A stretch of DNA of 64,000 bases from Mycolicibacterium phlei (GTDB taxonomy: Bacteria > Actinomycetota > Actinomycetes > Mycobacteriales > Mycobacteriaceae). The translations under genes were made by a program, and so were the position numbers. Every line of letters begins with the position of its first letter. Position 1 is the first letter of the stretch. Of the stretch, positions 26,047 to 44,527 are shown piece by piece. The notes beneath the pieces are model-generated. The model saw nothing but the letters and a program-made list of their open reading frames with translations, was not told where the DNA came from and ran no database searches. The stretch is taken from positions 1,550,001-1,614,000 of the forward strand of contig NZ_CP014475.1 of NCBI RefSeq assembly GCF_001583415.1, in the 5' to 3' direction.

Positions 26047-26797
26047 CCTCGCGGATCGCCCCGCTGGTGGAGGCCAGGATCTGGCTGCGGTTCTCCACCT
26101 GCAGGGCCGCGTCCAGGCTGGGCGCCTCGAGGTTGGCCCACAGCACCTGCTTGGTGGACTCGACCCCGAACTTGGCGTAGCCGCAGAGGGTTTCGGCGAT
26201 CTCGAGGGCATCGTCAACGACGTTGCCGGTGCTGATGCGGGAGACCAGCCCGAGCCGCAGGGCCTCCTGGGCGTCCACAGCGCGGGCGGTCAGGATGAGG
26301 TCGAACGCCGGCCCGGCGCCGATGATGCGGGGCAGGGTGTAGCTGACACCGATGTCGCAGCCGCCGAGTCCGAGCTTGATGAACTGGGTGCAGAACCGGG
26401 CGGATTCGGCGGCGACGCGGATGTCGCAGGCGGCGGCGATACCGAGACCGCCGCCGTAGGCGACGCCGTTGACCGCGGCGATGACGGGCTGGCGCAGGCG
26501 CTGGATCTTGACGGTGAGGTCGGCGATGAGCTCCTGGAAACGCATGCCGGAGCGGGGGAACTCCAGACCCTCCCCGGTGATCTCGGGGTCGTAGTCGGTC
26601 AGATCCAGGCCGGAGCAGAAGCCGCGGCCGGCGCCGGTGAGGACGACGACGCGGCAGTCGTTGTCGGCGCGCAGGTCGTCGAGGGCGGAGTGCAGGTCGC
26701 GGACGAGCTCATAGGACAGCGCGTTGAGCTTCTCGGGCCGGTTGAGCGTGATGACGGTGATGTCGGGGCGCGGGCGGCTCAGTTCCAGGGTCGACAT
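26012..26797 (-). CDS. Enoyl-CoA hydratase/isomerase family protein
   Basis: This 261-aa crotonase-fold protein has the oxyanion-hole segments GAGRGFCSGLDL and AAVNGVAYGGGLGIAAACD. The length and the C-terminal helices are normal. Neither of the usual hydratase glutamates can be assigned with confidence by eye, so it may be an isomerase or another crotonase activity. The ATG at 26797 begins at MSTLEL and is the natural start; the frame upstream is a shadow. It is preceded by the TetR gene on the same strand with a 25-bp gap, so the two may be co-transcribed. Confidence 0.85.
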   Translation of the reverse strand: MSTLELSRPRPDITVITLNRPEKLNALSYELVRDLHSALDDLRADNDCRVVVLTGAGRGFCSGLDLTDYDPEITGEGLEFPRSGMRFQELIADLTVKIQRLRQPVIAAVNGVAYGGGLGIAAACDIRVAAESARFCTQFIKLGLGGCDIGVSYTLPRIIGAGPAFDLILTARAVDAQEALRLGLVSRISTGNVVDDALEIAETLCGYAKFGVESTKQVLWANLEAPSLDAALQVENRSQILASTSGAIREATEAFRRRRQS

Positions 26798-26822
26798 GGG
26801 AACACCGTAGCCGCCGGAGGTT

Positions 26823-27482
26823 TCAGGGTGTGCTGCGCCACCCGTCGACGCCGACGGCAATCATCCGCAGCTGTTTGACGGCGACACGTTTGATCTCGTC
26901 GAGCGCGGCCTGGTCGTGGGCGTCCTCGATGGCCTCGGCAGTGACGATCATGGCGTTGACGAACAGGCTGGCCAGGATGTTGAGATCCTCGCTGCTCCAG
27001 GTGTTCAATCCGGGGAAGCGGGCCAGGTCGATGGCGAGTTCGGATGTGATGAGCCGGATTTCGGTGCGGATGGCGTAACGCAGCACCGAGACGCCGCTGT
27101 TGCGCTCCCGGCCGATGAACCGCCAGTGCTCGCGGCGCTCGTTGACCCCGTCGATGAGGATGTCGACGCTGGACTCGATGACGCGGGTGGGGTCGAGTTT
27201 GCCGGCGCGGGCGCCGCGCAGCAGGTCACGCAGGCTGCGGAAGGACTCGTCGATCAGGACGAGGCCGAGCGCCTCCATCGACTCGAAGTGGCGGTAGAAC
27301 GCCGCCGGCACGATGCCGGCCTCGCGAGTGACCTCACGCAAGCTCAGCCCGGAGAAGCTGCGCTGCTCGAGCAGGCGCAGGGCGGCGTCGATGATGGCCT
27401 GCCGGGTCGCCTGCTTGCGCTCCTCGCGGGTGAGCGTGTCACGCGTGCGCGAACGCTCGCCCCGTCCGGACCGGCTACCCAT
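26823..27482 (-). CDS. TetR-family regulator of the FabR/DesT type
   Basis: This 219-aa regulator has an N-terminal helix-turn-helix, SLREVTREAGIVPAAFYRHF, and a ligand domain. The run AFYRHFESMEALGLVLIDES, the RFIGRERNSG segment and the C-terminal QLRMIAVG match what I recall of E. coli FabR and Pseudomonas DesT, which sense unsaturated acyl-CoA/ACP ratios and control desaturation. ATG 27482 is chosen; ATG 27506 is an alternative that would place the operator inside the coding region. A palindrome directly upstream recurs at the reductase-desaturase operon 15 kb away. It lies just after giant gene 1. Confidence 0.85.
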   Translation of the reverse strand: MGSRSGRGERSRTRDTLTREERKQATRQAIIDAALRLLEQRSFSGLSLREVTREAGIVPAAFYRHFESMEALGLVLIDESFRSLRDLLRGARAGKLDPTRVIESSVDILIDGVNERREHWRFIGRERNSGVSVLRYAIRTEIRLITSELAIDLARFPGLNTWSSEDLNILASLFVNAMIVTAEAIEDAHDQAALDEIKRVAVKQLRMIAVGVDGWRSTP

Positions 27483-27489
27483 GTTTGCC

Positions 27490-27507
27490 AGCGTACAGCT
27501 GTTCACT
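27490..27507. promoter_or_regulatory. Candidate FabR/DesT-like operator at the TetR gene
   Basis: AGCGTACAGCTGTTCACT is an imperfect palindrome (AGYGWACAG arms, 7 of 9 positions paired) 7 bp before the TetR start codon. The half-site AGTGAAC on the minus strand is like the DesT operators I remember. The same pattern recurs at 42282-42300. Autoregulation of the TetR gene is the simplest reading. Confidence 0.6.
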
Positions 27508-27524
27508 TACGTATCGGCGGGTGG

Positions 27525-30500
27525 TCAGAAATCCCGATCGTTGTCGGTTTCGGATATCGCGGCGGTGCTCCCCAGCGGATTTCCTGCCAGGTCTTTCGGA
27601 CCGGACCCGGGAACCCAGGTCATCGTGGCGTTGGAGGTGACGGTGCCCTGGCCGATGAGGGGAAGGCCGAGGAGTTCGCCCTCAGGGCTGACGGCGCCGA
27701 GGGTGATCGTTACCGAGTTGCCGCTCATCACCATCGTTGAGTTGCTGTACTTGAGATACGCACCGAGGAGTCCGCCGAGCAGTGACGTAGCGTATCCCGC
27801 ATTGTCGAGTTTGACTGTGCCGAGCGTCGTCAACTGTGCATTGTCAGCGGCGTTGTAGACCTGGAGCGTGTCCTGTCCCCCGAGGAGATTCAGCAGAATA
27901 TCGCCGTCGAAGACTCGTACTGTGACGGTTTGGGCAGAGCCGTCCCAGCCGGCGAGGATGCTTCCCGGATCAATCGGCTCGCTGAACGTGTAGGTGATGG
28001 TGTCGCCCGGTTCGATCCTGCCTTGAGTACCGCCGTTCTTGTTGGTCGCCGTCACCATCACCGGTATCGGGGCGATGTTGTCGGTGATGGTCACCGTGGC
28101 GACATTGCTGTCGGCATTGCTGTCGCTGCCGTCATTGACCTTGTATGTGAACGAGTCGGCGCCCGTGTAGGTCCCGTTCGGCGTGTAGGTGATGGTGCCG
28201 TTCGCGTTGACCGTCACGCTGCCGTGGGCGGGTTGCGAGACGATCACCGGTGTCAGGGTCGTGCTGTCGACATCGATGTCGTTGGCGAGAACCGCGATGG
28301 TGACCGCCTGACCGGGATTGGTGTGAGCAGTGTCGTTGTTGGCGACCGGTGCGTCGTTGACGGGAGTGACCGTGATGGTCACGGTGCCTTCCGCACTGGT
28401 GGTTCCGTCGGAGACGGTGTACTTGAAGGAGTCGGTGCCGTTCCAATTGGTGGCCGGCGTGTACGAGAAGGTCCCGTCCGCGCTGACGCTCCACACGCCG
28501 CCGTTGACAGTGACGCCGTTGGCCGCAGTAACGGTGAGCGTCTCGCCGATGTCGACGTTCTGCGCGATGTCGTTGATCAGAACATTGCCGGTGATCGGAC
28601 CGCCGTCTTCGAGCCCAGAGGCTGTGTCGTTGATCGCGACGACCGGATCGTTGACCGGGTTGACAGTGATGGTCACCGTGGCCGTATTACTGACCGCGCC
28701 ACTGTTGTCGGTGATCTCGTAGGTGAAGCTGTCGGTGCCGTTGAAGTTGGCATTCGGTGTGTAGGTGAACTCCCCGGTGGTTTCGTTGAACGTCAGGGTG
28801 CCGTTCGAGGGACCCGTCACCACCGCCGCCGACACGATGGTGGCCTTGCCCTCGGGATCGGTGTCGTTGGTCAGTACGTTGCCTGTGACCTGAGTGTCCT
28901 CGTTGGTGGCGATGGTGTCGTTGACCGCGACCGGCGGATCATTGACCGGCTCCACCGTAATCGTCACCGTCGCTTCCTCACTCGTCAGCGAGCCGTCGCT
29001 GATCGTGTAGGTGAAGCTGTCGGTGCCGTTGAAGTTGAGTCCTGGCGTGTAGGTGAACTCTCCGGTGGTTTCGTTGAACGTCAGGGTGCCGTTCGAGGGC
29101 CCGATCACGACCTCCGCCGACTGGATCGTGTTGTTGCCGTCCGGGTCGGTGTCATTGGTCAGCACGTTGCCGGAGACCGCGGTGTCCTCGTCGGTGGTGA
29201 AGCTGTCATTCACAGCGACCGGTCGGTCGTTGACCGGGGTCACGGTGATGTCCACAGTGGCATCGGCGGTGCCACCCTGGCTGTCGGAGACGGTGTAGGT
29301 GAAGCTGTCGGTGCCGTGGTAATCCTGGTGCGGCGTATAGGTGAACGTGCCGTTGGGGTTCAGGTTCAGCGTGCCGTGCGACGGATCGGTATGCGAGATG
29401 ACCGTCAGCGGGTTGCCATCGACGTCGCTGTCGTTGCTCAGGACGTTACCGCTGTAGGTGGTGTCCTCGGCGACGGTGAAGGAATCGTTGGCGGCGACCG
29501 GGGGGTCGTTGACCGGTGTGACCGTGATTGTGACGACACCCGCGGTCTGGCCGTTCACCGTGCCGTCGTTGACCCGGTAGAAGAACGTGTCGGTGCCGTA
29601 GAAGTTCGCATTCGGCGTGTAAGTGAAGGTGCCGTTGGAGTTCAGCGTCAGAGTCCCGTTGTTGGGCCCCATGACCAGAGTCGCCGACAGGGTGTCACCG
29701 TCGACGTCGATGTCGTTGGTCAACACGTTGCCGTTCAACGGGGTGTCCTCGTCGGTGTTGAACGAGTCGTTGACGGCGACGGGGCGGTCGTTCACCGGGT
29801 TGACGGTGATGTTCACGGTGCCGACAGCGGTGCCGCCCTGGCCGTCGGAGACGGTGTAGGTGAAGCTGTCGGTGCCGTTGTAATTCTCATGCGGTGTGTA
29901 GGTGAACGTGCCGTTGGGGTTCAGCGTCAGCGTGCCGTGCGCCGGGTTGGTATTCGCGATGACCGTCAGAGCGCCGCCGTCGACGTCGGTGTCGTTGGCC
30001 AGCAGACCGGTGCCGGCGGGCACGGTCAGGACGGTGTCCTCGTTGACGCTGTAGTTGTCGGTCACGGCGACAGGCGCATCGTTGACCGCGATCACCGTGA
30101 TGTTCACGGTGCCGACGGCGGTGCCGCCCTGGCCGTCGGAGACGGTGTAGGTGAAGCTATCGGTGCCGTTGTAGTTGGCCACTGGGGTGTAGGTGAACGA
30201 CCCGTCGGTGTTGACGGTGACGGTGCCGTGGGCCGGCTCGGTGGTCAGGGTGGCGGACAGAGTGCCGCCGTCGACGTCGGTGTCGTTGGCCAGCAGACCG
30301 GTGCCGACGGGCACGGTCAGGACGGTGTCCTCGTTCACGGTGTACGTGTCGGTGCCCGCGACCGGCGCGTCGTTGACCGAGGTGACCGAGATCGTCACCA
30401 ACGCCGTATCGGTGCCGCCTTGGCCATCGGAGACCTCGTAGGTGAAGGTGTCGGTGCCGTTGAAGTTGAGATCGGGCGTGTAGGTGAACGTGCCGTCCTC

Positions 30501-33500
30501 GTTGAGCGTCAACGTGCCGCTGCTCGGACCCGACACCACGCCGACCACTGTCAGCGCATCCTTATCGGCGTCAACGTCGTTGGCGAGGACATCCATGGTG
30601 AGCTCGGTGTCCTCATCGACGGTGAACGAATCGTCGTTGGCCACCGGGGCGTCATTGACGTTGGTCACCACGATGGTGACCAACGCCGTGTTGCTCGTCA
30701 GCTCGCCGTCTGAGGCCTCGTAGGTGAAGGTGTCGGTGCCGTAGAAATCGACATTGGGGACGTAGGTGAAGCTACCGTCCGGGTTCAGCGTGAGTGTGCC
30801 GTTCTTCGGCCCGTCGACCAGGCTGACCGTGATGGAATCGCCGTCGACGTCGATGTCGTTGCCGATCACCGAGTCTTGCAGCGTTCCCTCTTCGGGGACG
30901 GTGAAGTTGTCGTTGTATGCGACCGGCGCATCGTTGACTGGCTGAATGTTGAATGTCACGGTGCCGGTGGCGATTCCGCCCTTGCCGTCGGAGACGGTGT
31001 AGGTGAACGAGTCGGTGCCGTGGTAGTTGGGGTTCGGCGTATAGGTGAACGTGCCGTCGGCGTTCAGGTCCAGGGTCCCGTTACTGGGTGGGTCATCCAG
31101 TGTCACGGTGAGGCTGTCGCCGTCGACGTCGTGGACGGTGACGCTGGACTCGATCTGGTGGTCCTCGTCGAAGGTGAAGGTGTCGTCTTCGGCGGTCGGG
31201 TCGTCGTTGACGGGGGTGATGGTGATGGTGATGGTGCCGGTGGCGGTTTCGCCGTCAGGGTCGGTGACGGTGTAGGTGAACGTATCGACACCGTTGAAGT
31301 TGGCGGCCGGTGTGTAGGTGTAGTCGCCGTTGGCGGTGATGCTGTAGGTGCCGCCGTTGGCGGTGGTCTGGTTGGTGACCGGTGTGACGGTGAGGGTTTC
31401 GTCGACGTCGACGTTGGCCGCGTTGTCGTTGGTCAGCACGTTGCCGGTCACAGCCGGGCCGTCTTCGACACCGGTGTTGGTGTCGTTGACCGCCACCACC
31501 GGGTCGTTGACCGCGGTGATGGTGATGGTGATGGTGCCGGTGGCGGTTTCGCCGTCGGGGTCGGTGACGGTGTAGGTGAAGGTGTCGTCGCCGTTGTAGT
31601 TGGCGGTTGGGGTGTAGGTGAAGGTGCCGTCGCCGTTGTCGGTGACGGTGCCGTGAGCGGGGGTGCCGAGGTTGATGGTCAAGGGGTCGCCGTCGGCATC
31701 GGAGATCGGCAGGGTCCCGGTGTAGGGGGTGTCCTCCTCGGTGGTCACGGTGTCATCGCCGGCGACGGGGGCGTCGTTGACGGGGGTGACGGTGATGGTG
31801 ATGGTGCCGGTGTCGCTGTAGGTGCCGTCGCTGACGGTGTAGGTGAAGCTGTCGGTGCCGTTGAAGTTGGCGGCCGGTGTGTAGGTGTAGTCGCCGTTGG
31901 CGGTGATGCTGTAGGTGCCGCCGTTGGCGGTGGTGAGGTTGGTGACCGGTGTGACGGTGAGGGTTTCGCCGACGTCGACGTTGGCCGCGTTGTCGTTGGT
32001 CAGGACGTTGCCGGTGATCGGGCCGCCGTCTTCGTCGACGGTGTTGGTGTCGTCGACCGCGACGACGGGGTCGTTGACGGCGGTGATGGTGATGGTGATG
32101 GTGCCGGTGGCGGTTTCGCCGTCAGGGTCGGTGACGGTGTAGGTGAAGGAGTCGTCGCCGTTGTAATTCGTCGTCGGGGTGTAGGTGAAGGTGCCGTCTT
32201 CGTGGATGGTCAGGGCACCGTATTCCGGTTCGGTGCCGACCTCGATGGTCAGGGGGTCGCCGTCGGCATCGGAGATCGGCAGGGTCCCGGTGTAGGGGGT
32301 GTCCTCCTCGGTGGTCACGGTGTCATCGCCGGCGACGGGGGCGTCGTTGACGGGGGTGACGGTGATGGTGATGGTGCCGGTGTCGCTGTAGGTGCCGTCG
32401 CTGACGGTGTAGGTGAAGTTGTCGGTGCCGTTGAAGTTTTCGGCGGGGGTGTAGGTGTAGGTACCGTCCGCGGCGATGCTGTAGGTGCCGCCGTTGGCGG
32501 TGGTGAGGTTGGAAACCGGTGTGACAGTCAGAACCTCGCCGGCGTCGACGTTGGCCGCGTTGTCGTTGGTCAGGACGTTGCCGGTGATCGGGCCGCCGTC
32601 TTCGTCGACGGTGTTGGTGTCGTCGACCGCGACGACGGGGTCGTTGACCGCGGTGACGGTGATCGTCACGACACCGGTGGAGCTGGTGGCGCCGTCACTG
32701 ATCGTGTAGGTGAAGCTGTCGGTGCCGTTGAAGTTTTCGGCGGGGGTGTAGGTGAACTCGCCGTCGGCGTCGATGGTCCAGGTGCCGCCGTTGGCGGTGA
32801 CGCCGGAACCCGGTGTGACGGTGAGGACCTCGTCGTCGACGTTGGCGGCGTTGTTGGCGGTCAGAATGTTGCCGGTGGCCGTGGCGCCGTCCTCGACGGC
32901 GTCGGCGGTGATCTCGACGGCCTGCACCGGGTCGTTGACCGCGGTGACGGTGATGGTCACCGTGCCGATCGCGGTACCACCCTGCCCGTCGGAGACCAGG
33001 TAGGTGAAGGTGTCCCCGCCGTTGAAGTTCGGTGCCGGGGTGTAGGTGAAGGTGCCGTCGCCATCCAGCGTGACCGTGCCGTTCTTCGGTTCCGTCGCCA
33101 ATATCACCGACAACCCATCGCCGTCGGGGTCGGTGTCGTTGCTGAGGACATTGCCGGTGAGCGTGCTGTCCTCGTTGATGGTGTAGGAGTCGGGACCGGC
33201 GACGGGCAGGTCGTTGACCGAGGCCACCGTGATCGTCACCGTGGCCGTGTTGCTCGTCAGGAGGCCGTCGGAGGCCTTGTACGTGAACGAGTCGACGCCG
33301 TGGAAGTTGGCGTTCGGCGTGTAGGAGAACGTGCCGTCCGGATTCAGCGTGAGCGTCCCGTTCGACGGGCCCGAAACCAGCTGTGCCGTCAGCGGATCGC
33401 CGTCTGAGTCGGTGTCGTTGTCCAGGACGCTGCCGGTCTTCGGAGTGTCCTCGTTGGTGGTGAACGTGTCGTTGGCCGCCACCGGTGCGTGGTTGATGTC

Positions 33501-36500
33501 GCGGACGGTGATGCGGACCGTCGCTACTTCACTGTCGGCGGCGTTGTCGGAGGCGATATAGGTGAACGAATCCTCGCCGTGGAAGCCGCTGTTGGGGATG
33601 TAGGTGAAGGTGCCGTCAGCGTTGAGCGTCACCGTGCCGTTGGCCGCCGGGCTCACCAGGGTGGCGGTGAGTGGGTTGTTGTCCTTGTCGGTGTCGTTGC
33701 TCAGGACGTTGCCGGTCAACACCGAATCCTCGTTGATCGTGTACGAGTCATCCTGGGCCACAGGCGGATCGTTGACCGGTGTCACCGAGATGATGACGAT
33801 CGAGGCGTCACTGTCGACGACACCGTCGGAGATGGAGTAGTAGAAGTAGTCGACGCCGTTGAAGTCCGGTGCCGGCGTGTAGGTGAACGTGCCGTCCTCG
33901 TTCAGCGTCACGTCGCCGTGCGAGGGCGGCATCACCAGGACCGCGGTGAGCGCGTCGCCGTCGATGTCGTGGTCGTTGTCCAGGACGTTGCCCGTCAACG
34001 GCGAGTCCTCGGGCGTTGAGTAGAAGTCGTCCTGCGAGACCGGGGCGTCGTTGACGGGGGTGACGGTGACGGTGACCAGGCCGGTGTCGCTGCCACCCTT
34101 GCCGTCGATGACGGTGTAGGTGAAGGTGTCGGTGCCGTTGAAGTCCGCCGCCGGGGTGTAGGTGAACGACCCGTCCGGGTTGAAGGCCACCGTCCCGTGT
34201 CCCGGCTGCGTGACCGTCGACACCGAGAGCGGATTGCCGTCGACGTCGCTGTCGTTGGTCAGCAGGTTGCCGCTGAGCGTCCCGTCCTCGGCGACCACAT
34301 AGACGTCGTCCTGAGCCACCGGTGCGTCGTTGACCGGGGTCACCGTGATCGTCACGACCGCCGGCGCGCTGGTGGCGGTGCCGTCGGACACCGTGTAGCT
34401 GAACGAGTCTGTGCCGTAGTAGTTCTCGTTAGGCTTGTAGGTGAAGCTGCCGTCCGACTCCAGCGTGAGTGTGCCGTGCGCCGGATTCGACACCACCGAC
34501 GCGGTCAGTGAGTCGCCGTCCACATCGCTGTCGTTGGTGAGGACGTTGTTGGTGAGCGTGCCGTCCTCGGTGACGGTGAAGCTGTCGTTGACCGCGACGG
34601 GCGCGTCGTTGACCGGGTTGACCGTGATGGTGACGGTGGCGGGGCCACTGGTCGCGCCGTGGCTGTCGGTGACGGTGTAGGTGAACGAGTCGGTGCCGTG
34701 GAAGTTCGCGTTCGGCGTGTAGGTGAAGCTTCCGTTCGAATGCCACTGCAGCTGACCGTTCGCCGTCCCCGCGCCGGGGGTGACCGTCAGCGGGTCGCCG
34801 TCGACGTCGACGTCGTTGGCCAGCACGTTGCCGACCAGGACCGCGTCCTCGTTGACGGTGTAGGAATCCGGGTTCGCGACCGGGTCATCGTTGACGGGGG
34901 TGACGGTGATCCGCACCAGCGTCGGCGCACCCGTCAGCTCACCGTCGGTGGCGACATACGAGAACGCATCGGTGCCAGTGAAGTTCGCGTTCGGCGTGTA
35001 GACGAACGAGCCGTCGGCGTTGAGCTGGACGGTGCCGTGGCTGGGCGCGGTGTCCAGCACCGCGGTGAAGCTGTCACCGTCGGGATCGGAGTCGTTGGCC
35101 AGCACGTTGCCCGTGGCCTGCGAGTCCTCGGTGATGACGTACTCGTCGTCAGTGCCCACCGGGGGCCGGTTGACCGGGGTGATGATGATGGCGACGCGTG
35201 CCGGGGCGCCCGCCGCGCTGTTGTAGGCCGTGTAGAGGAACACGTCCTCGCCGGAGTACTCGGGATCGGGCTCGTAGAGGAACGAGCCGTCCGGTTGCAG
35301 CGTCAACCTGCCGTACTGAGGCTCCACAAGCGGTGCGGCGGTGAGGGTTTCGCCGTTGGGGTCGGTGTCGTTGGCCAGCACGTTGCCCGTGGCGGGCACG
35401 CCCTGTTCGGTGACGAACACATCGTTGTTCGGCGTCGGCGGCAGCGTCGCGGCCACAACCGTGATCCTGATCTTCGCCGAGTCGGTGTGGCCCCAGTGCG
35501 GGCGCAGGAAGCCGAGCAGGCCGTGCAGGTGCGGTCGGGTGTGGGCGTCGCTGACGGTGAGCCGGAACTCGTCGGTGCCGGTGAAGCCGGGGTCTGGGGT
35601 GTAGGTGAAGGTGCCGGTGGCCTGGTCGACGGTGACCGAGCCGTGCGTCGGCCCGCCGGGCACGCCCTGGGTGGGCACGTAGTACCGGAGGTTGTCACCG
35701 TCGAAGTCGTGCACGTGGAAGGAGATCGGGCCGCTCTCCCCGCCGGGAGGCAGCACCAGGGTGATCTCCTGGTTGATCGCGATCGGAGTCCAGTTGAAAA
35801 AGGTGCGCTGCACCTCGCGGCGCACGAACTCCAGCATCGCCCACAGCATCGGCGGGTGCGTCGGCGCGGACGGGTGCCCGAAGATCGGGGTCAGCAGGGC
35901 GGCGACGACGGTGTGCGCGAGATCGATGACGGCCATCGGCACCGCCAGCACCGCCTGCAGCGGGTTGACCGCGGTCGCCGACGGGATGGTCGGCGGCTGC
36001 CACCGGATGTGATGGGCCACCTGGTTCGGGGCCTCATTCCCGGTGTCCCCGATGTCCTCGGAGTCTTCGGAGGTGGCGGACAGACCGAACGCCTGCAGCA
36101 CCGAATCGATGACGTCGGTATCGCTCGTCGGCTCCGGTGACCTGAACGCCTCTGCGGGCGAATTGTTTTCGGTCGAAGCCGGGTCGCCCCCAGACTCTGC
36201 GGCGGGATCGGACTCGGGCTCGGGATCCTGGATCGGCGGGACCGCCTCGTCCTCGCCGGCGACCGGCTCCGGCTCTTCCTCCTCGGGCTCCGGCTCCGGC
36301 TCCGGCGTCTCCACCTCGAGGTCGTCATCGGTCGCCTGTCCGGCGTCGTTGGTGGAGTTGGTGAGCCCACCGGAGCTGCTGACCTGCATGCCCCCGGAGG
36401 TGTCGGGGTCCGTGTCGGTGTCGGTGCCGGCGTTGCCCGAATTGTTCGACGACGGGGTCGACGGGGACTCCGCCGATTCGCTGGTGGTCGAGGGGGAGGT

Positions 36501-36794: not shown

Positions 36795-36889
36795 TGTCAG
36801 TCTCCCGCCGTCTGCGCCGCCTGGGCGAATCCGCTCGCTCTGCTGCCCACCCGACGCAGGGTATGGAGACCGACCGCTGTGGGGGAGCG

Positions 36890-36916
36890 TCAGCTAATTT
36901 AACTTACCTGTTAAAT
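36890..36916. promoter_or_regulatory. AT-rich palindrome in the giant gene 1 upstream region
   Basis: A perfect inverted repeat, ATTTAAC-TTACCT-GTTAAAT (36897-36916), sits about 100 bp upstream of giant gene 1 in otherwise GC-rich DNA. Its left part, TCAGCTAATTTAAC, recurs exactly at 41964-41977, about 92 bp upstream of giant gene 2. On the minus strand it contains possible -10 elements such as TAAATT. It is a candidate promoter/operator common to both giant genes. Confidence 0.55.
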
Positions 36917-37163
36917 AATGCCAGCATAACGCTACCGTTGGTGGTCAATTCCCCGGCGAATCGGAAAAGTTCCGCATCGAAAGCGCGTTGAGTGCGCATA
37001 ATCCGTGCTCAAGTAGCCGGTTCAGCGCGGAATCCGCAGGGCTTACCACTGGTGGGCATGTCGCCGAGATAAGTCCGTGAATTAGTAAAGCCATCTCAGC
37101 AAATGATCTTGATTCGTCCCGCAACTGCGCCGGGGTTGTCATTTCATTGCGACTCGAAATAGA

Positions 37164-37175
37164 TACAACTGTTCA
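37164..37175. promoter_or_regulatory. Degenerate FabR/DesT-like half-palindrome
   Basis: TACAACTGTTCA reproduces the TACA-NN-TGTTCA core of the operators at 27490 and 42282, with outer positions lost. It corresponds to the block at 42209-42221 in the other 5' region. It may be a weak site or a relic of the duplication. Confidence 0.3.
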
Positions 37176-37200
37176 GCGAATCTCAGGGGGTCAACGGTGG

Positions 37201-37237
37201 CCGGGGATGCGTCGATCCGACGATCGCGCATCCCCGG
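37201..37237 (-). terminator. Probable terminator of giant gene 2
   Basis: A perfect 11-bp inverted repeat (CCGGGGATGCG at 37201-37211 and its complement at 37227-37237) with a 15-nt loop lies 73 bp beyond the giant gene 2 stop codon. It has no T-run, as is common in mycobacteria. It also interrupts the homology with the 42.2-kb region, so it may have formed after the duplication. Confidence 0.6.
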
Positions 37238-37254
37238 TGTGCACACGTTCACTG
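37236..37254. promoter_or_regulatory. FabR/DesT-like palindrome, duplicate of the desaturase-operon site
   Basis: GGTGTGCACACGTTCACTG matches the site at 42282-42300 in 16 of 19 positions. It lies about 440 bp upstream of giant gene 1 and just beyond the giant gene 2 end. It keeps the GTTCACT half but loses part of the core TGT. It is either a functional distal site or a remnant of the duplicated control region. Confidence 0.4.
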
Positions 37255-37309
37255 AGATTTCGATACCGGCCGGCACGGTACTGACCAGTGCCGATGCCGA
37301 ATCGGGCGC

Positions 37310-40300
37310 TCAGAAGTCCCGGTCGTTGCCGCCGGACTCGATGACCGGGGCGGGGGTCAGCGGATTGCCCGCGAGATCGGTGATGCCCTCCGCCGGCGTC
37401 CACGTCAGCTTGCTCCAGCCCAGGCCGTACGCACGGACGACACCCGTGAACTCCGACTGGTACGTGCCGATGGTGATCGTCAGCGTGTTGCCGGCCAGGG
37501 TCATCGTCGACGGGTCGCCGGTCGCGCCGAAGGTGACGTACTCGCCGTTGCCACCGGTCACGTAGTCCGCCCGACCCAGGTCGATCCGGCCGAAGGGCAG
37601 CAGCTCCTGGTTGGCCGCGTCGTACACCACCAGGCTGTCGTACCCGTTCTCGGTGGGGAAGCCGAGGACCGTGGCGTCATACGCCCGGACCACCACGTTG
37701 GCGGGGGCGGTGCCGTCCCAGCCGGCCAGGATCGAGCTCGGGTCGATCGGCTCGCTGAACGTGAACACGATCTGATCGCCCTTGCTGATCAGGCCCTCGC
37801 TGGACAGCCCCGAGTCGCGCACGCCGCTGTCGATCGTCTGCACGTCGATCGCCACCGGGGCGATGTTGTCCACGACGGTGATGCTGACGGTGGCGATGTT
37901 GCCGGTCGTGGTGCCGTCGCTGAGCTGGTAGGTGAAACTGTCCGTCCCGCTGAAGCCGGCCGTCGGGGTGTAGGTGAACGACCCGTCCTTGTTCAAAGTC
38001 ACGGTGCCGCTGGCGGGCCCGTTGACCAGCGTGGCGGTGATCGCGTCACCGTCGACGTCGAAGTCGTTGCCGACCACGCCGGGGCCGGAGACCGTCAGCG
38101 TCTGACCCTGGTTCACCGAGTACGCGTCGTCGCTGGCCACCGGTGCGTCGTTGACCGCCGTGATCGTGATCGTGACGGTCGCGGTGTTGCTGGTCGCGCC
38201 GTCGCTGTCGGTGATCGTATAGGTGAAGGTGTCGGTGCCGTTCACGTCCGCCGCCGGCGTGTAGGTGAATTCGCCTGTGGCCGTGTTGAGATCGAGGGTG
38301 CCCTTGGTGGGTCCGGTCACGACGGTCATCGACGCGATGGTCGTCTTGCCGTCGACGTCGGTGTCGTTGGTCAGCACGTTGCCCTGCACGGCGGTGTCCT
38401 CGTTGGTGGTGACGGTGTCATCGCCGGCCACCGGTGCGTCGTTGACGGCCGTCACCGTGATCGTCACCGTCGCGACGTCGCTCGTGAGCGTGCCGTCGGA
38501 GACGGTGTAGCTGAAGCTGTCGGTGCCGGTGTAGTCGGTGTTCGGGGTGTAGGTGTAACTGCCGTCCGCCTGCAGGTGCAGCGTGCCGTTGTTCGGCTCG
38601 GTGTGCACCGTCGTGGTCAGGGTGTCGCCGTCGGCGTCGGTGACGTGGTTGAGGACGTTACCGCTGTGGGTGGTGTCCTCGGTAATCTTCACGGAGCCGT
38701 CGACGGTCACCGGCGCGTCGTTGACCGGGGTGACGGTGATGGTGACCGTGCCGAGCCTGGTGGTGGTGCCGCCGTCGCTGACCCGGTACACGAAAATGTC
38801 GGTGCCGTTGAAGTTCTCGTCCGGCGTGTAGGTGAAGGTGCCGTCCGCGTTGAAGTCCAGCTTGCCGTGCGTCGGTGCACCCACCAGCGACGTGGTGAGC
38901 GTGTCGCCGTCGATGTCGGTGTCGTTGGTCAGCACGTCGCCGGTCAGCTGGGTGCCCTCGTCGGTCGTGTACGAGTCGTCGGTGGCCACCGGCGCGTCGT
39001 TGACCGGCGTGACGTTGATGGTCACCGTCGCGAGGTTGCTCGTCGCGTTCTTCGCGTCGGTCACCGAGTAGACGAAGCTGTCGGTGCCGTTGTAGTCCGC
39101 CTCGGGTGTGTAGGTGAACGTGCCGTCGGCGTTGAGCTTCAGCGAGCCGTGTGTCGGCCCGGAAACCACTGCGGCGCTGAGATCGTCGTTGTCGGGGTCG
39201 AAGTCGTTGGTCAGCACGTTGTCGGTGAGGGCGCTGTCCTCGCCGATCGTGTACTCGTCGTTGACCGCGACCGGGGCGTCGTTGACGGCGGTCACGGAGA
39301 TGGTCACCACGGCGGTGTCGCCGAGGCGGCCGTCGCCGGCGGCGTAGGTGAAGCTGTCGGTGCCGTTGTAGTCCGCCTCGGGCGTGTAGGTGAACGTGCC
39401 GTCGGCGTTGAGCGTCAGCGAGCCGTGGCTCGGACCCGAAACCACCTCGGCGGTAAGCCGATCGCCGTCGGTGTCGGTGTCGTTGTCCAGGACGTTGCCG
39501 GTCAGCTGGGTGCCCTCGCCGACGGTGTAGTCGTCGTCCTTGGCCACCGGGGCGTCGTTGACCGGGGTCACCACGATGGTGACCAGGGCGGTGTTGCTGG
39601 TCAGCTCGCCGTCGGAGGTCTGGTAGGTGAAGCTGTCGGTGCCGCTGAAGTCGGCGTCGGGCACGTAGGTGAAGCTGCCGTCGCCGTTGAGCGTGAGCGC
39701 ACCGTTCGCCGGGCCCGTCACCAGCGTCGCGGTGACCGTGTCACCGTCGACCTCGCGGTCGTTGGCCAGGACCGAGTCGTGCAGCGAGCCGTCCTCGGCC
39801 ACCGTGAACGTGTCGTTGTCAGCGACCGGCGCGTCGTTGACCGGGGTGATCTCGAAGGTGATCGTCGCGACGTCGCTGACCGCGGTGCCGTCGGACACGG
39901 CGTAGCTGAATGTGTCGGTGCCGTAGTAGTTCTCGTTCGGCGTGTAGGTGAAGCTGCCGTCGTCGTTGAGGGTGAGGGTGCCGTGGCTGGGCCCGCTGAC
40001 CAGTGACGCGGTGAGCGTGTCGGCGTCGGCGTCGGTGTCGTTGGCCAGCACCTTGCCGGTGAGCGTGCCGTCCTCGGCGACGGTGAAGCGGTCGTCGTTG
40101 GCGACCGGCGCGTCGTTGACCGGGTTGACGGTGATCGTGACGGTGCTGTCCGCGGTGCCGCCCTGCCCATCGGAGACGGTGTAGGTGAACGTGTCCTCGC
40201 CGTGGTAGTCGGCGTGCGGGGTGTAGGTGAACGAGCCGTCGGCGTTGAGTTCGACATCGCCGTGCGCGGCGGGGGTGTCGAGCACCGCGGTGACGGCGTC

Positions 40301-41872
40301 ACCGTCGGGGTCGCGGTCGTTGGTCAGCACGTTGCCGGTGACGGCCGTGTCCTCGCTGGTGGTGTACGCGTCGTCGACGCCGACCGGTGCGCGGTTGACC
40401 GGCGTGATGACGATGTCCACCCGGCCGGTGCTGCTGAGTTCGCCGTTGAACGCCGTGTAGACGAAGCTGTCCATGCCGTGATACTCGGGATCGGGCTCGT
40501 AGGTGAACGAACCGTCCACCGAGAACGCCAGTTTCCCGTAGCGCGGCCCGGTGACCAGTGCGGCGGTGAGGGTTTCGCCGTCCAGGGCGCTGTCGTTGGC
40601 CAGCACGTTGCCGACGATGGTCTTGCCCTGCTCGGCCACGAAGCGGTCGTCCGCGGTGACCGGGGGCTGGGCCGCGGAGACCACGGTGATGGTGATCTTC
40701 GCCGAGTCGGTGTGGCCCCAGTGCGGGCGCAGGAAGCCGAGCAGGCCGTGCAGGTGCGGTCGGGTCTGCGCATCGCTCACGGTGAGCCGGAACTCGTCGG
40801 TGCCGGTGAAGCCGGGGTCGGGGGTGTAGGTGAAGGTGCCGGTGGCCTGGTCGACGGTGACCGAGCCGTGCGTCGGCCCGCCGGCGACACCCTGCGTCGG
40901 CACGTAGTACTTCAGGCTCTCGCCGTCGAAGTCGTGCACGTGGAAGGAGATCGGGTCGCTTTCCTCGCCGGGCTTGAGCACCAGGGTGATCTCCTGGTTG
41001 ACGGCCAGGGGAGTGCGGTTGAAGAAGGTGCGCTGGACCTCGCGGCGGACGAACTCCAGCATCGCCCACAGCAGCGGCGGCTGAGCCGGAGCCGACGGGG
41101 TGCCGAAGATCGGGGTCAGCAGGGCGGCGACGACGGTGTGCGCGAGGTCGACGACGGCCTTGGGTGCGGCCAGCACCGCCTGCAGCGGGTTGACCGCGGT
41201 CGCCGACGCGAACGTCGGCGGGGCGATCGTGGCGTGGTGGGCCACCTGGTTCAGCGTGACGTCCTCGACGCCGACGGACGTGGCACCGGCCCGGCCGACC
41301 GACTGCAGAGTCGAGTCGATGACGGTCGTGTCGCTGGCCGCCGGGGTGAATGTGTCGTGCTGCGAACCGATTTCGGCGGCGGGACGGTCCTTGTCGCTGC
41401 GTGCCGGTGTCGCGTCGGTCTGCTCGGTGGGGGCCGACTCGGCGTCGTCGGCGGGGGTCGTTTCCGGCTCACTGGCGGGCTCGGATGCGGTGGTGTCCTC
41501 GCCGGCGGATTCGTCGTCGTCTGCCGGTAGTTCATCGGCGTCGGTGACCTGATCGGTGTCGTCGTCGGAGTCGATGCGCCCACCGGAACTGCTGACCTGC
41601 ATGCCGCCGGTGCCGGGGTCGTCGGAGGCGGAGTCGGTGTCCGCGTAGGCGACGGCCAGGCCGTGGTGGCCGGTGCCGACCACGACGCCGATGCCGAGCG
41701 CCACGGCCAGTGCGCCGACCCGGCCGATGTAGCGCGAGTAGTGCGCCGCGGTGGCCGGCTCGAGGCTGGTCGCCGCGTGGTCCTCGGCGCGCAGGGTGAA
41801 GTGCGGGTAGATCGCCTGTGGGCTCGTCGTGCGGGGGTTCCTCCGATGACGTCCCCTGTTCATTCCAGCCAT
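37310..41872 (-). CDS. Giant secreted cadherin/VCBS-like repeat protein 2 (about 1520 aa)
   Basis: This shorter paralogue of giant protein 1 has the same plan: extended signal region (1-77, cleavage near AYA), acidic linker, the conserved LEFVRREVQRTFFN segment, a divergent first unit, 10 tandem cadherin/VCBS-like repeats and the SEPIDPSSILAGWDG domain ending NDRDF. The N-terminal 300 or so residues are very similar to protein 1, with long near-identical DNA runs (35470-35650 against 40690-40870). ATG 41872 is preferred over 41926 because GGGGAG lies 7 bp upstream and the peptide then aligns with protein 1. It is divergent from the reductase gene. Confidence 0.87.
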   Translation of the reverse strand: MAGMNRGRHRRNPRTTSPQAIYPHFTLRAEDHAATSLEPATAAHYSRYIGRVGALAVALGIGVVVGTGHHGLAVAYADTDSASDDPGTGGMQVSSSGGRIDSDDDTDQVTDADELPADDDESAGEDTTASEPASEPETTPADDAESAPTEQTDATPARSDKDRPAAEIGSQHDTFTPAASDTTVIDSTLQSVGRAGATSVGVEDVTLNQVAHHATIAPPTFASATAVNPLQAVLAAPKAVVDLAHTVVAALLTPIFGTPSAPAQPPLLWAMLEFVRREVQRTFFNRTPLAVNQEITLVLKPGEESDPISFHVHDFDGESLKYYVPTQGVAGGPTHGSVTVDQATGTFTYTPDPGFTGTDEFRLTVSDAQTRPHLHGLLGFLRPHWGHTDSAKITITVVSAAQPPVTADDRFVAEQGKTIVGNVLANDSALDGETLTAALVTGPRYGKLAFSVDGSFTYEPDPEYHGMDSFVYTAFNGELSSTGRVDIVITPVNRAPVGVDDAYTTSEDTAVTGNVLTNDRDPDGDAVTAVLDTPAAHGDVELNADGSFTYTPHADYHGEDTFTYTVSDGQGGTADSTVTITVNPVNDAPVANDDRFTVAEDGTLTGKVLANDTDADADTLTASLVSGPSHGTLTLNDDGSFTYTPNENYYGTDTFSYAVSDGTAVSDVATITFEITPVNDAPVADNDTFTVAEDGSLHDSVLANDREVDGDTVTATLVTGPANGALTLNGDGSFTYVPDADFSGTDSFTYQTSDGELTSNTALVTIVVTPVNDAPVAKDDDYTVGEGTQLTGNVLDNDTDTDGDRLTAEVVSGPSHGSLTLNADGTFTYTPEADYNGTDSFTYAAGDGRLGDTAVVTISVTAVNDAPVAVNDEYTIGEDSALTDNVLTNDFDPDNDDLSAAVVSGPTHGSLKLNADGTFTYTPEADYNGTDSFVYSVTDAKNATSNLATVTINVTPVNDAPVATDDSYTTDEGTQLTGDVLTNDTDIDGDTLTTSLVGAPTHGKLDFNADGTFTYTPDENFNGTDIFVYRVSDGGTTTRLGTVTITVTPVNDAPVTVDGSVKITEDTTHSGNVLNHVTDADGDTLTTTVHTEPNNGTLHLQADGSYTYTPNTDYTGTDSFSYTVSDGTLTSDVATVTITVTAVNDAPVAGDDTVTTNEDTAVQGNVLTNDTDVDGKTTIASMTVVTGPTKGTLDLNTATGEFTYTPAADVNGTDTFTYTITDSDGATSNTATVTITITAVNDAPVASDDAYSVNQGQTLTVSGPGVVGNDFDVDGDAITATLVNGPASGTVTLNKDGSFTYTPTAGFSGTDSFTYQLSDGTTTGNIATVSITVVDNIAPVAIDVQTIDSGVRDSGLSSEGLISKGDQIVFTFSEPIDPSSILAGWDGTAPANVVVRAYDATVLGFPTENGYDSLVVYDAANQELLPFGRIDLGRADYVTGGNGEYVTFGATGDPSTMTLAGNTLTITIGTYQSEFTGVVRAYGLGWSKLTWTPAEGITDLAGNPLTPAPVIESGGNDRDF
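37856..40643 (-). repeat. 10 tandem cadherin/VCBS-like repeats in giant gene 2 (approximate limits)
   Basis: Ten units of about 92-98 codons run from the FVAEQGKT unit near 40643 to the unit ending DNIAPVAI near 37856. First, second and last units pair best with the first, second and last units of giant gene 1. The size difference between the two genes is therefore mainly internal gain or loss of repeats. Confidence 0.8.
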
Positions 41873-42290
41873 GTCGTTCTCCCCGCGGTCAGGCGCCTCA
41901 GAGCGAAGTCGACCGCACTGATTCACGCCCCGATGCGCAGGTGACGCCTCAAGGGGCGGGCGCTCAGCTAATTTAACGAACTAGAACAATTGGTTAACCA
42001 TAAGTCAACTTATGGAAATAACGTCCGACGGCGTGATTCGCATCTCGTTTCTGCAGGCGGGAAGTACTTCGGATTTCGCGTGAATAGCGCTTGAGTCACT
42101 ACGAATTACGAATCTCGCCGACAAACCTGCAGTACTTGCATGTGCAAGAAATACCGGAATCCAGCAAATGATCCTGATGCGCGCCGGGGCGGTGTTCACG
42201 CAATTGAAACAAGTGTTCACTGAATGTGAGGGCGCCCACAAACCGGATAAACCCATTGATCGGGCCCTCGCCGTCGTGCACGGTGTACAT
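41873..42290. other. 418-bp divergent control region, giant gene 2 / reductase-desaturase operon
   Basis: The region holds the promoters of two divergent transcription units. It contains the shared TCAGCTAATTTAAC block (41964-41977), two perfect palindromes (41991-42015) and several GTTCAC half-sites at 42194, 42215 and 42294. The small open frames within it are not supported. It is the better preserved partner of the duplicated 36.9-37.3 kb region. Confidence 0.65.
41991..42015. promoter_or_regulatory. Double palindrome over a possible giant gene 2 -35 element
   Basis: TGGTTAACCA (41991-42000) is a perfect 10-bp palindrome. It overlaps CCATAAG-TCAA-CTTATGG (41998-42015), a perfect 7-bp inverted repeat. 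The centre of the second reads TTGACT on the minus strand, a usable -35 element for giant gene 2. Neither palindrome is conserved in the giant gene 1 copy. Confidence 0.4.
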
Positions 42291-42300
42291 ATGTTCACTG
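42282..42300. promoter_or_regulatory. Candidate FabR/DesT-like operator at the reductase-desaturase operon
   Basis: GGTGTACATATGTTCACTG shares 14 of 17 positions with the TetR-gene site at 27490 (GYGTACA-NN-TGTTCACT). It overlaps the presumed ATG at 42291, so the message is either leaderless or starts further downstream. A weaker copy, ACAAGTGTTCACT, lies at 42209-42221. Confidence 0.6.
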
Positions 42301-43361
42301 GAAATTCCACTGGAACGTTGGCCCGGCGGGTGCTCCGGTCACCGCTGATCGACCTGCTCACCGGGCCGCACGGAGTGGACCGCTACACCGAGCTCGTCGC
42401 CCCGACCTGGACCGACGCCGAGGCCCGCGCCCAGGTCGTCGCCGTCACGCGGCCGACGCCGCGCGCCGTCACCCTGACCCTGCGCCCCAACCGTGCGTTC
42501 ACCGGCTTCCGGGCAGGTCAGCACGTCAACCTCGCCGTCGAGATCGACGGTCGGCGCCGTGTCCGCCCCTACTCACCGGCCTGCGCGGAGAACGCCGGCC
42601 ACCTCGAGCTGACCATCGGCCGCCACGACGGCGGGCTGGTCTCCACCTACCTCTACGAGCACGCCAGCCCCGGCATGGTCGTCGGCCTGAGCGACGCCGC
42701 CGGCGACTTCGTGCTGCCGGCCGAACGCCCCCACCGGATCCTGTTCATCTCCGGCGGCAGCGGCATCACCCCGGTGATGTCGATGCTGCGCACCCTGCGA
42801 GCCGAGCGCTTCGCGGGCGAGATCGCGTTCCTGCACTACGCGCGCGGCGCCGACGAGGCCTGCTACCGCGCCGAGCTGGCCGCGATGACCGGGGTGCGGG
42901 TGCTGCACGGCTACACCCGCGCGACCGACGGCTCCGACCTCGACGGCCGCTTCGGCCCCGCACATCTGGCCAAGGCGATGCCCGACCTCGACAGCGACAC
43001 CGCGGTCTACGTGTGCGGCCCCGCCGAACTCGTCGACGCCGTGAAGACGCACTGCCCGCAGGCCCGTTCGGAAAGCTTTGTGCCACCCCGGTTGACGACC
43101 GTCGCATCGGGCGGCGCGGTTCGCTTCACCAAGTCCGGGACGACGGTCACCGACGACGGCCGCCCCCTGCTGGAGCAGGCCGAGGCCGCCGGGCTGACCC
43201 CCGAGAGCGGATGCCGGATGGGCATCTGCCACAGCTGCACCCGCCGCAAGACCCACGGCGTGGTGAAGAACCTGATCACCGGAGCGGTGTCGGGTCCCGA
43301 CGCCGAGGACGTGCAGATCTGCGTGTCCGCGCCCGTCGGCGACGTCGACCTCCTGCTTTAA
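42291..43361 (+). CDS. Flavin/2Fe-2S oxidoreductase, electron donor to the desaturase (Rv3230c-like)
   Basis: This 356-aa reductase has an FAD domain with RPYSPA (92-97), an NAD(P) domain with GGSGITP (155-161) and YVCGP (240-244), and a C-terminal plant-type [2Fe-2S] ferredoxin with C308, C313, C316 and C344. It should pass electrons from NADPH to the desaturase encoded 38 bp downstream, as Rv3230c does for DesA3 and DesC for DesB in Pseudomonas. ATG 42291 gives an N-terminus of similar length to Rv3230c (SPLIDLLTGPHGVDRY follows). Longer frames reach 42168; GTG 42330 is a shorter option. Confidence 0.88.
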   Translation: MFTGNSTGTLARRVLRSPLIDLLTGPHGVDRYTELVAPTWTDAEARAQVVAVTRPTPRAVTLTLRPNRAFTGFRAGQHVNLAVEIDGRRRVRPYSPACAENAGHLELTIGRHDGGLVSTYLYEHASPGMVVGLSDAAGDFVLPAERPHRILFISGGSGITPVMSMLRTLRAERFAGEIAFLHYARGADEACYRAELAAMTGVRVLHGYTRATDGSDLDGRFGPAHLAKAMPDLDSDTAVYVCGPAELVDAVKTHCPQARSESFVPPRLTTVASGGAVRFTKSGTTVTDDGRPLLEQAEAAGLTPESGCRMGICHSCTRRKTHGVVKNLITGAVSGPDAEDVQICVSAPVGDVDLLL

Positions 43362-43380
43362 AGACCTGCTGCTTTAAGAC
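43352..43380 (+). repeat. Short direct repeat at the reductase stop codon
   Basis: CCTGCTTTAAAGAC and TGCTGCTTTAAGAC lie side by side over the reductase TAA and the gap before the desaturase. This looks like a small tandem duplication by replication slippage. It adds about 15 bp of spacing but does not touch the desaturase ribosome-binding site. Confidence 0.6.
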
Positions 43381-43399
43381 CTGCCCTCTAGGAGAAGAC

Positions 43400-44527
43400 A
43401 TGACTCTCACAACGACACAACCCCGGACGCTCGAGAAGACCGTCGCCGGGCACACCGTCACGCTGACCGCCGAGCAGGCCGAGGCGTTCGGCCGCGAACT
43501 CGACGCCCTCAAGGAGAGCGTCATCGCCGACCTCGGCGAGCGCGACGCCACCTACATCCGCCGAATGGTCAAGGCCCAACGGGGATTTGAGGTCGCCGGC
43601 CGGGCGCTGCTGTTCGGCGGGGTGTTCCCGCCGTTCTGGTTGGCCGGCACTGCGATGCTGGGCGTGGCGAAGATCCTCGACAACATGGAGATCGGCCACA
43701 ACGTCATGCACGGCCAGTACGACTGGATGAACGATCCGGCGCTGTCCAGCCGTGCGTTCGAGTGGGACACCGCCTGCCCGAGTGACCAGTGGCGACACTC
43801 GCACAACTACATGCACCACACCTACACCAACATCGTCGGCATGGACCGCGACGTCGGCTACGGCATCCTGCGGATCAGCAAGGACCAGCCGTGGAAGCCG
43901 TACTTCTTGGGCAACCCCGTCTACGCGTTCCTGCTGATGGTGCTGTTCCAGTACGGTGTCGCGCTGCACGATCTCGAGACCGAACGCATCCTCGCCGGCG
44001 AGGTCACGGTGGCCGAGAAACGCGAGATCCTCGAAGGCATCTGGCGCAAGACCCGACGCCAGACGCTCAAGGACTACGTGGCGTTTCCGCTGCTGGCCGG
44101 GCCGTTCGCGCCGTGGGTGCTCACCGGCAACCTGACCGCCAACCTGATCCGCAACGTGTGGTCGTACATGATCATCTTCTGCGGGCACTTTCCCGACGAC
44201 GTCCAGGAGTTCTCCGTCGAGGAGACCAAGGCCGAGACTCGCGGCCAGTGGTACTTCCGCCAGGTGCTCGGATCGGCGAACCTCACCGGTCTCTTCCCCC
44301 GTCGCTTCGCTCGCCCCGACGGGAAGCTGTTCCACATCCTGTCCGGCAACCTGTCGTTCCAGATCGAACACCACCTGTTCCCGGACATCCCGGCCCACCG
44401 GCTCGCGGAGATCTCCACGCAGGTGCGCGAGATCTGCGGCCGCTACGGCATCCCGTACAACAGCGGGTCGCTGCCGCGCCAGTTCGCGACCGTGGTGCGC
44501 AAGATCGTCCGCCTCGCCCTGCCCTGA
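43400..44527 (+). CDS. Membrane fatty acyl-CoA desaturase (DesA3-like)
   Basis: This 375-aa di-iron desaturase has the three histidine boxes GHNVMH (99-104), HSHNYMHH (133-140) and QIEHHLFPDIPAH (from 321), plus H263 in CGHFPD. Hydrophobic spans near 67-92 and 230-262 anchor it in the membrane. It would put a cis double bond into stearoyl- or palmitoyl-CoA using electrons from the preceding reductase. ATG 43400 follows AGGAG at 43390-43394. It is shorter than the M. tuberculosis DesA3 I remember (427 aa), lacking the basic C-terminal tail that has been linked to protein turnover there. Confidence 0.92.
   Translation: MTLTTTQPRTLEKTVAGHTVTLTAEQAEAFGRELDALKESVIADLGERDATYIRRMVKAQRGFEVAGRALLFGGVFPPFWLAGTAMLGVAKILDNMEIGHNVMHGQYDWMNDPALSSRAFEWDTACPSDQWRHSHNYMHHTYTNIVGMDRDVGYGILRISKDQPWKPYFLGNPVYAFLLMVLFQYGVALHDLETERILAGEVTVAEKREILEGIWRKTRRQTLKDYVAFPLLAGPFAPWVLTGNLTANLIRNVWSYMIIFCGHFPDDVQEFSVEETKAETRGQWYFRQVLGSANLTGLFPRRFARPDGKLFHILSGNLSFQIEHHLFPDIPAHRLAEISTQVREICGRYGIPYNSGSLPRQFATVVRKIVRLALP

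Follow-up and report, generated by a model that had tools for sequence, protein, structure and literature searches.

The stretch of DNA analysed here (the window) comprises 64,000 nucleotides of the Mycolicibacterium phlei chromosome (contig NZ_CP014475.1, positions 1,550,001 to 1,614,000 of the forward strand). It contains a gene for a TetR-family regulator resembling DesT and FabR (hereafter TetR), a reductase-desaturase gene pair on the opposite strand and, between them, two giant tandem-repeat genes, G1 and G2. Related operators of 18 base pairs (bp) are present at the start of TetR (operator A) and over the start codon of the reductase (operator B), 14.8 kb apart. This arrangement is most probably that of a DesT-type divergon split by the giant genes, in which TetR is predicted to repress both itself and the reductase-desaturase operon. 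The principal features are as follows.

26823..27482, minus strand: TetR-family regulator, DesT/FabR-like, 219 amino acids from the ATG at 27482 (TetR_N; similarity to DesT, 3lsj)
27490..27507: operator A, AGCGTACAGCTGTTCACT, at the TetR start; matrix score 25.4, one of two exact matches in the genome
27525..36794, minus strand: giant tandem-repeat protein G1, 3089 amino acids, predicted adhesin (Big_9/Cadherin_4/Cadherin_5; tand_rpt_95)
37310..41872, minus strand: giant tandem-repeat protein G2, predicted adhesin, likely ATG start at 41872
42282..42299: operator B, GGTGTACATATGTTCACT, enclosing the reductase ATG (42291-42293); matrix score 30.7
42291..43361, plus strand: FAD/NAD/2Fe-2S reductase, 356 amino acids, DesC-like partner (Pfam FAD_binding_6, NAD_binding_1, Fer2)
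43400..44527, plus strand: membrane fatty-acid desaturase, 375 amino acids (FA_desaturase PF00487, E 4.3e-29, from a scan of the longer open frame 43013-44527)

Two operators at two gene starts

Operators A and B are identical at 14 of 18 positions, and each is self-complementary at 14 of 18. The open frame of TetR runs up to a GTG at 27506, which is the second base of operator A. An initial annotation of this DNA had reported both sites, a third copy at 37236-37253 and weak ones near 37164 and 42209; these positions and sequences are confirmed, and its count of 14 shared positions out of 17 for the two main sites becomes 14 of 18 over the full operators.

The genome-wide scan that the initial annotation had proposed returned the exact pattern GTACANNTGTTCACT only twice in the whole genome (5,349,645 bases), once at the start of TetR and once across the reductase start codon, where about 0.017 occurrences are expected from the base composition of the window; this is not chance frequency. 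Within the window, the pattern originally described, with up to three mismatches, has six matches (two of them the same near-palindromes read on the opposite strand) against a mean of 1.07 in shuffled sequences, and none of 100 shuffles reached six. With up to two mismatches, GTACANNTGTTCACT occurs at 23 places genome-wide, four of them in this locus, compared with nine for the reversed pattern.

Sites were also scored with a weight matrix built from 152 operators of the genus, the weakest training site of which scores 15.5. In addition to operators B (30.7) and A (25.4), the sites at 37236 and 42204 score 15.8 and 3.5, respectively, and the maximum in the reversed window is 3.7. No clear second target was found among the 23 near matches, although more distant targets could be missed since only places with at most two mismatches to GTACANNTGTTCACT were scored. 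A genome-wide regulon was rejected, as the best near matches outside the locus (16.7, 13.9 and 11.6) fall within long open frames; another near match outside the locus, L015, scores 8.5.

Conservation of the divergon

Conservation was assessed in a named set of 80 mycobacterial loci, the best 80 of 323 relatives found, which represent closest relatives and not a random sample. TetR and the reductase-desaturase pair are divergent neighbours in 78 of these, the other two (L109 and L132) being cut by contig ends. Operator A was found in 76 of the 78 complete loci (not in L076 and L091), with an in-frame GTG in 75 and a GTA in one (M. deserti), open into TetR. Operator B was likewise found in 76 (not in L070 and L097), and all 76 carry an in-frame reductase start codon inside it (75 ATG, one GTG); the missing sites may be due to the range scanned or to variation in the site itself. 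In 73 of the 74 loci with both operators, the distance between the start codons of TetR and reductase is 69-71 bp; in the other, M. deserti, it is 153 bp. In a broader sample of the genus, the strict pattern is present in 112 of 148 genomes, and 135 of the 148 contain a match to TetR at E <= 1e-20.

The arrangement is not restricted to the genus. Of 121 genomes searched across the order, 32 matched, ten of them in the genus, and the 22 others yielded 20 loci. In 19 of these 20, the reductase is the divergent neighbour of TetR. With the matrix trained on in-genus operators only, the best operator scores are 19.0-29.2 in all 20 loci, and the site is located in the gap in 19/19 divergons. Because divergon and operator are kept in the genus loci examined and in 19 of 20 loci outside it, the link between regulator and operator predates the adhesins. 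The initial annotation had proposed that one pattern links TetR, the desaturase and the adhesins; its TetR-desaturase part is upheld by this conservation, its adhesin part is not.

In eight loci (L168-L175, from G022, G069, G130, G073, G078, G016, G101 and G086), a second strong operator with a score of 21-24 lies 17 bp from B, so that the unit there has three operators.

Identity of the regulator

By sequence and by predicted fold, TetR is a DesT homologue, in line with its description as FabR/DesT-like in the initial annotation. A PDB sequence search gave DesT (3lsj) at E 1.9e-31 over residues 19-219, the next match being at 2.4e-08, and the region of the recognition helix is nearly identical (LSLREVTREAGIVPAAFYRHF in TetR, LSLREVTRAAGIVPAGFYRHF in DesT). 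The four closest structural matches to a model built from 21 sequences (mean predicted local distance difference test score, pLDDT, 80) are all DesT chains, DesT on the desCB promoter among them, with template modelling (TM) scores of 0.81 by query length and 0.87-0.91 by target length. TetR is also the best match to the FabR model in its own genome (130.9 bits, next 43.0). A TetR fold with full-length similarity to DesT, as in DesT/FabR regulators, is accompanied by a FabR-like palindromic operator at the target promoter, 15 of 18 positions of A and 13 of 18 of B agreeing with the motif published for FabR. By analogy, TetR likely works like DesT.

Promoters and proposed mechanism

Three promoter elements are predicted at the two gene starts.

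42256..42261, plus strand: predicted -35 of the reductase promoter, TTGATC, corresponding to conserved TTGAC
42279..42284, plus strand: predicted -10 of the reductase promoter, CACGGT, from the alignment of 74 loci
27490..27495, minus strand: predicted -10, TACGCT, inside operator A, 7 nucleotides before the TetR ATG; predicted leaderless promoter

TTGAC, at positions -36 to -32 relative to the reductase ATG, is conserved at 97-100% in the 74 aligned loci; two bases of the -10 element, an A at -11 (its position 2) and a T at -7 (its position 6), are invariant. These conserved positions point to a promoter from which the transcript would start at the reductase ATG itself. Mycobacteria are described as translating messenger RNAs that begin with ATG or GTG in leaderless fashion (PMC4633059).

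In the proposed mechanism, TetR would repress itself as well as the reductase-desaturase operon by binding the 18-bp operators at the two gene starts; both messenger RNAs are presumably leaderless. Since the reductase transcript is predicted to have no leader, a dimer bound at operator B would overlap the last part of the -10 element, the transcription start and the start codon at once. TetR of the split form has probably acquired its own promoter, with a -10 element (TACGCT) that belongs to operator A; the idea that TetR has no promoter of its own in this form was dropped once that element was predicted. DesT binds acyl-CoAs, saturated and unsaturated chains acting in opposite ways, and saturated chains open the desaturase. 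By analogy, acyl-CoAs would set the grip of TetR here, and saturated chains would again relieve repression of the desaturase.

The giant genes as late arrivals

G1 and G2 are built of tandem bacterial immunoglobulin/cadherin-like repeats, and both exceed the cut-off of the NCBIfam model for BapA/Bap/LapF (NF045619; 507.1 and 204.6 bits, cut-off 180). The open frame of G2 reaches 41926 (1538 amino acids). Both proteins end in NDRDF (27525-27545 and 37310-37330, minus strand), a possible common C-terminal signal.

In 41 of the 43 genus loci checked, the reductase is found no more than 1.5 kb from TetR, the exceptions being the window and one further genome, G011, which has a single giant gene (2714 amino acids) at the same place between TetR and reductase. 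In a tree, these two are sisters nested among unsplit relatives (Shimodaira-Hasegawa-like approximate likelihood ratio test, SH-aLRT, 99; bootstrap 98 and SH-aLRT 94 in a second tree), and for this reason the giants are most simply explained as a derived insertion. A close giant N-terminus is found in four of 396 genus genomes (E <= 1e-35): those of the window and G011, that of G034, whose giant is 468 kb away from its TetR, and that of G307, where no TetR or reductase is present in the 16 kb read around the giant. The idea that the giants are an old part of the locus was not supported, given the reductase beside TetR in 41/43 loci and the giant N-terminus in 4/396 genomes.

In three relatives (L094:13582-15957, L108:15664-19995 and L129:16714-19953), other tandem-repeat giants are located downstream of TetR, about 3-6 kb away, a hint that this neighbourhood attracts such genes. 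One sequence alignment, A1, omits L129. TetR is followed by a gene for an enoyl-CoA hydratase and then one for a short-chain dehydrogenase/reductase (25276-26860 in the window), in the same order in L094, L108, L129 and L138.

A recurring change where TetR is displaced

The spacing between operators A and B was measured in 100 distinct loci (36 duplicates and the truncated L109 and L132 excluded). It is 77-79 bp in 90 and exceeds 100 bp in eight; in the remaining two, counted among the 92 undisplaced loci, A and B were picked in reverse (-77 and -78). The share of displaced genomes is not a frequency, because most genomes were chosen for long or unusual gaps. The eight comprise the window and G011, with their giants; G079, G085 and M. 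deserti, whose spacers are longer by about 84-169 bp; and G020, G021 and G124, where 76 bp are added. Giant remnants were considered for the spacers of G079, G085 and M. deserti and rejected, as only short, weak matches were found (best E 0.02). In the last group (L165-L167, from G124, G020 and G021), the TetR-side site lies 153 bp from B, and G020 has a middle site scoring 11.5.

In five of the eight displaced loci, the TetR-side operator ends in TANNNT followed 6-7 nucleotides on by an in-frame ATG or GTG, a layout found in none of the 92 others. The five are the window, G011, G079, G085 and M. deserti, and they occupy four branches of the tree. TetR is thus predicted to have often, but not always, gained a leaderless promoter inside its own operator after losing the shared promoter. 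This would be a repeated evolutionary event, in which the operator of a displaced TetR takes the predicted leaderless -10 form in four branches and not in the group of G020, G021 and G124.

Several observations weigh against the reading developed so far, in which TetR governs a conserved divergon and may acquire a promoter within its operator. The strict pattern is absent from 36 of the 148 genus genomes, and 13 lack a TetR match at E <= 1e-20, with at least five more having a distant or partial match only. Other sites, within genes of the order-level loci, score up to 16.3. A generic scanner calls no sigma-70-type promoter at either the TetR or the reductase start. TetR misses the cut-off of the FabR equivalog model (NF008402; 130.7 of 151 bits) and for that reason is not classed as an equivalog of FabR. 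The promoter layout is missing from three displaced genomes (G020, G021 and G124), their TetR-side site being weak (6.0), with the GTG inside kept and the sequence ending in TAGCCC, and three others (G034, G096 and G121) have TANNNT with neither displacement nor start codon; the promoter-in-operator step is hence no rule. Finally, TetR in the window could be read from G1: 42 bp lie between the stop codon of G1 and the ATG of TetR, and no terminator was called in this gap.

Possible links between adhesins and the regulator

Because of this short gap without a called terminator, read-through from G1 is a second possible route, besides operator copies, by which the adhesins could be linked to TetR. 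TetR, and the enoyl-CoA hydratase gene after it, would then be transcribed mainly from the upstream giant gene, and adhesin expression would set the amount of repressor. We regard this as a tentative possibility. The genes lie on the same strand, with only 18 bp from the G1 stop to the GTG at 27506; the layout in G011 is similar (giant frame end 11113, TetR frame start 11140); and the sequence found just upstream of operator A in unsplit relatives has remained on the reductase side. However, the TetR-side operator of the window and G011 has a predicted leaderless -10 element of its own, as it does in three displaced genomes with no giant in the gap.

The other route concerns further operator-like sites beside the giants.

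37161..37179: A'', A-type operator remnant between G1 and G2, 14 of 19 and 15 of 19 positions identical to A' of the window and of G011
37236..37253: B'', B-type operator remnant, the third copy of the initial annotation, 15 of 18 positions identical to B; score 15.8
42205..42223: A', A-type operator remnant on the reductase side, 15 of 19 positions identical to A' of G011

The reductase side of both the window and G011 keeps a module A'-B, in which A' is decayed (3.5 in the window, the level of the reversed control, and 0.3 in G011). A'' and B'' are 75 bp apart from start to start, compared with 77 bp, and over the 56-58 bp between them 31-32 positions match against a shuffle mean of 27. This module serves no reductase, and the reductase start codon and -10 element are lost: B'' has ACG where B has ATG. 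A further copy, A''-B'', of the two-operator module between the giants accounts for the third and weak sites, which would have arisen by duplication of a module carrying both operators.

The initial annotation had suggested that membrane fluidity and surface adhesion are controlled together. In this form of control, TetR would also repress G1 and G2 through the copies upstream of them (37161-37253 and 42204-42299), so that the state of membrane lipids sets adhesin expression. Such joint control appears rather unlikely. On the one hand, A'' (14 and 15 of 19), B'' (15 of 18) and the 75-bp spacing are kept while the intervening sequence is near the shuffled level, and B'' just exceeds the weakest training site, a comparison that is partly circular because B'' was first noticed for its likeness. 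On the other hand, B'' has lost its symmetry (8 of 18 positions self-complementary, against 14 of 18 for A and B) and is outscored by a site within a long open frame elsewhere in the genome (16.7), so that the third copy, though present, is weaker than it looks. The low scores of A' point the same way, and the modules are upstream of the likely giant starts by some 330-440 bp, with another block, common to the three upstream regions, in between. The giants are late arrivals and the sites beside them parts of copied modules; what still speaks for joint control of fluidity and adhesion is the survival of both operator blocks and their spacing between the two giants.

The block just mentioned, GTTAAATTAGCTGA, occurs about 90-130 bp before the starts of G1 (36794) and G2 (41872) on the minus strand and also, in changed form, upstream of the G011 giant; it is perhaps the giants' own promoter region.

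A fuller version, in which a DesT-type repressor became wired to adhesion, is to our mind unlikely. The giants would have entered the divergon, the module upstream of the first giant would have been kept for adhesin control after loss of the desaturase promoter, and the repressor would run from a leaderless promoter made of its own operator. Control of adhesins by membrane lipid state would, if true, newly connect envelope physiology with surface attachment.

It is exceedingly improbable that the motif recurs by chance or as ordinary repeat content without regulatory meaning: near matches with up to two mismatches are common in the genome (the 23 places), but the exact pattern is confined to the two gene starts, its place and spacing are fixed in 73 of 74 loci and the operator is present in 19/19 divergent gaps outside the genus, so that a chance origin of A and B is rejected on the exact scan, the expected count and conservation at genus and order level.

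Comparison with known systems

The preferred reading, a DesT-type divergon split by giant genes, has its closest counterpart in the DesT-desCB system of Pseudomonas aeruginosa, with which it shares a homologous regulator (36-38% identity in structural alignment) and a target that pairs a reductase with a desaturase; in P. aeruginosa the divergon consists of desB and desT (PMC4273635). Unlike DesT-desCB, the mycobacterial unit has an operator at each of the two start codons, a gap that is fixed in relatives and genes predicted to be leaderless, and in the lineage of the window giant genes separate regulator and target. The Escherichia coli FabR motif is given as AGCGTACACGTGTTCGCT (PMC4273635), and operator A matches it at 15 of 18 positions; in contrast to FabR, TetR falls below the equivalog cut-off, and the 23 near matches in its genome include no clear second target. 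In the fabR-desA divergon of Shewanella oneidensis, the site begins at the predicted transcription start (PMC4273635).

Within mycobacteria, the TetR-type regulator MadR is described as controlling the desaturase genes desA1/desA2 in mycolate synthesis and as binding acyl-CoAs, and its predicted structure has been likened to DesT (PMC8872791). By description only, the present system differs in its target, a membrane desaturase (PF00487) and its reductase. The desaturase of the window may be orthologous to MSMEG_1743, which is reported to be induced in cold (PMC10454040). G1 and G2 resemble adhesins of the BapA/Bap/LapF type in passing the model cut-off, and are known here from sequence; unlike those adhesins, they sit inside a desaturase divergon.

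Proteobacteria are known to have divergons of FabR and of DesT (PMC4273635). No mycobacterial report of a TetR-reductase-desaturase divergon was found in the open-licence literature, and overlap with the motif logos of PMC4482099 is possible. What appears to be new is the pair of operators embedded in start codons at fixed spacing, the recurring promoter-in-operator state predicted where TetR is displaced, and the split by giant genes. Mycobacteria and their order thereby gain a candidate DesT, a unit of regulator, operator and target for membrane desaturation.

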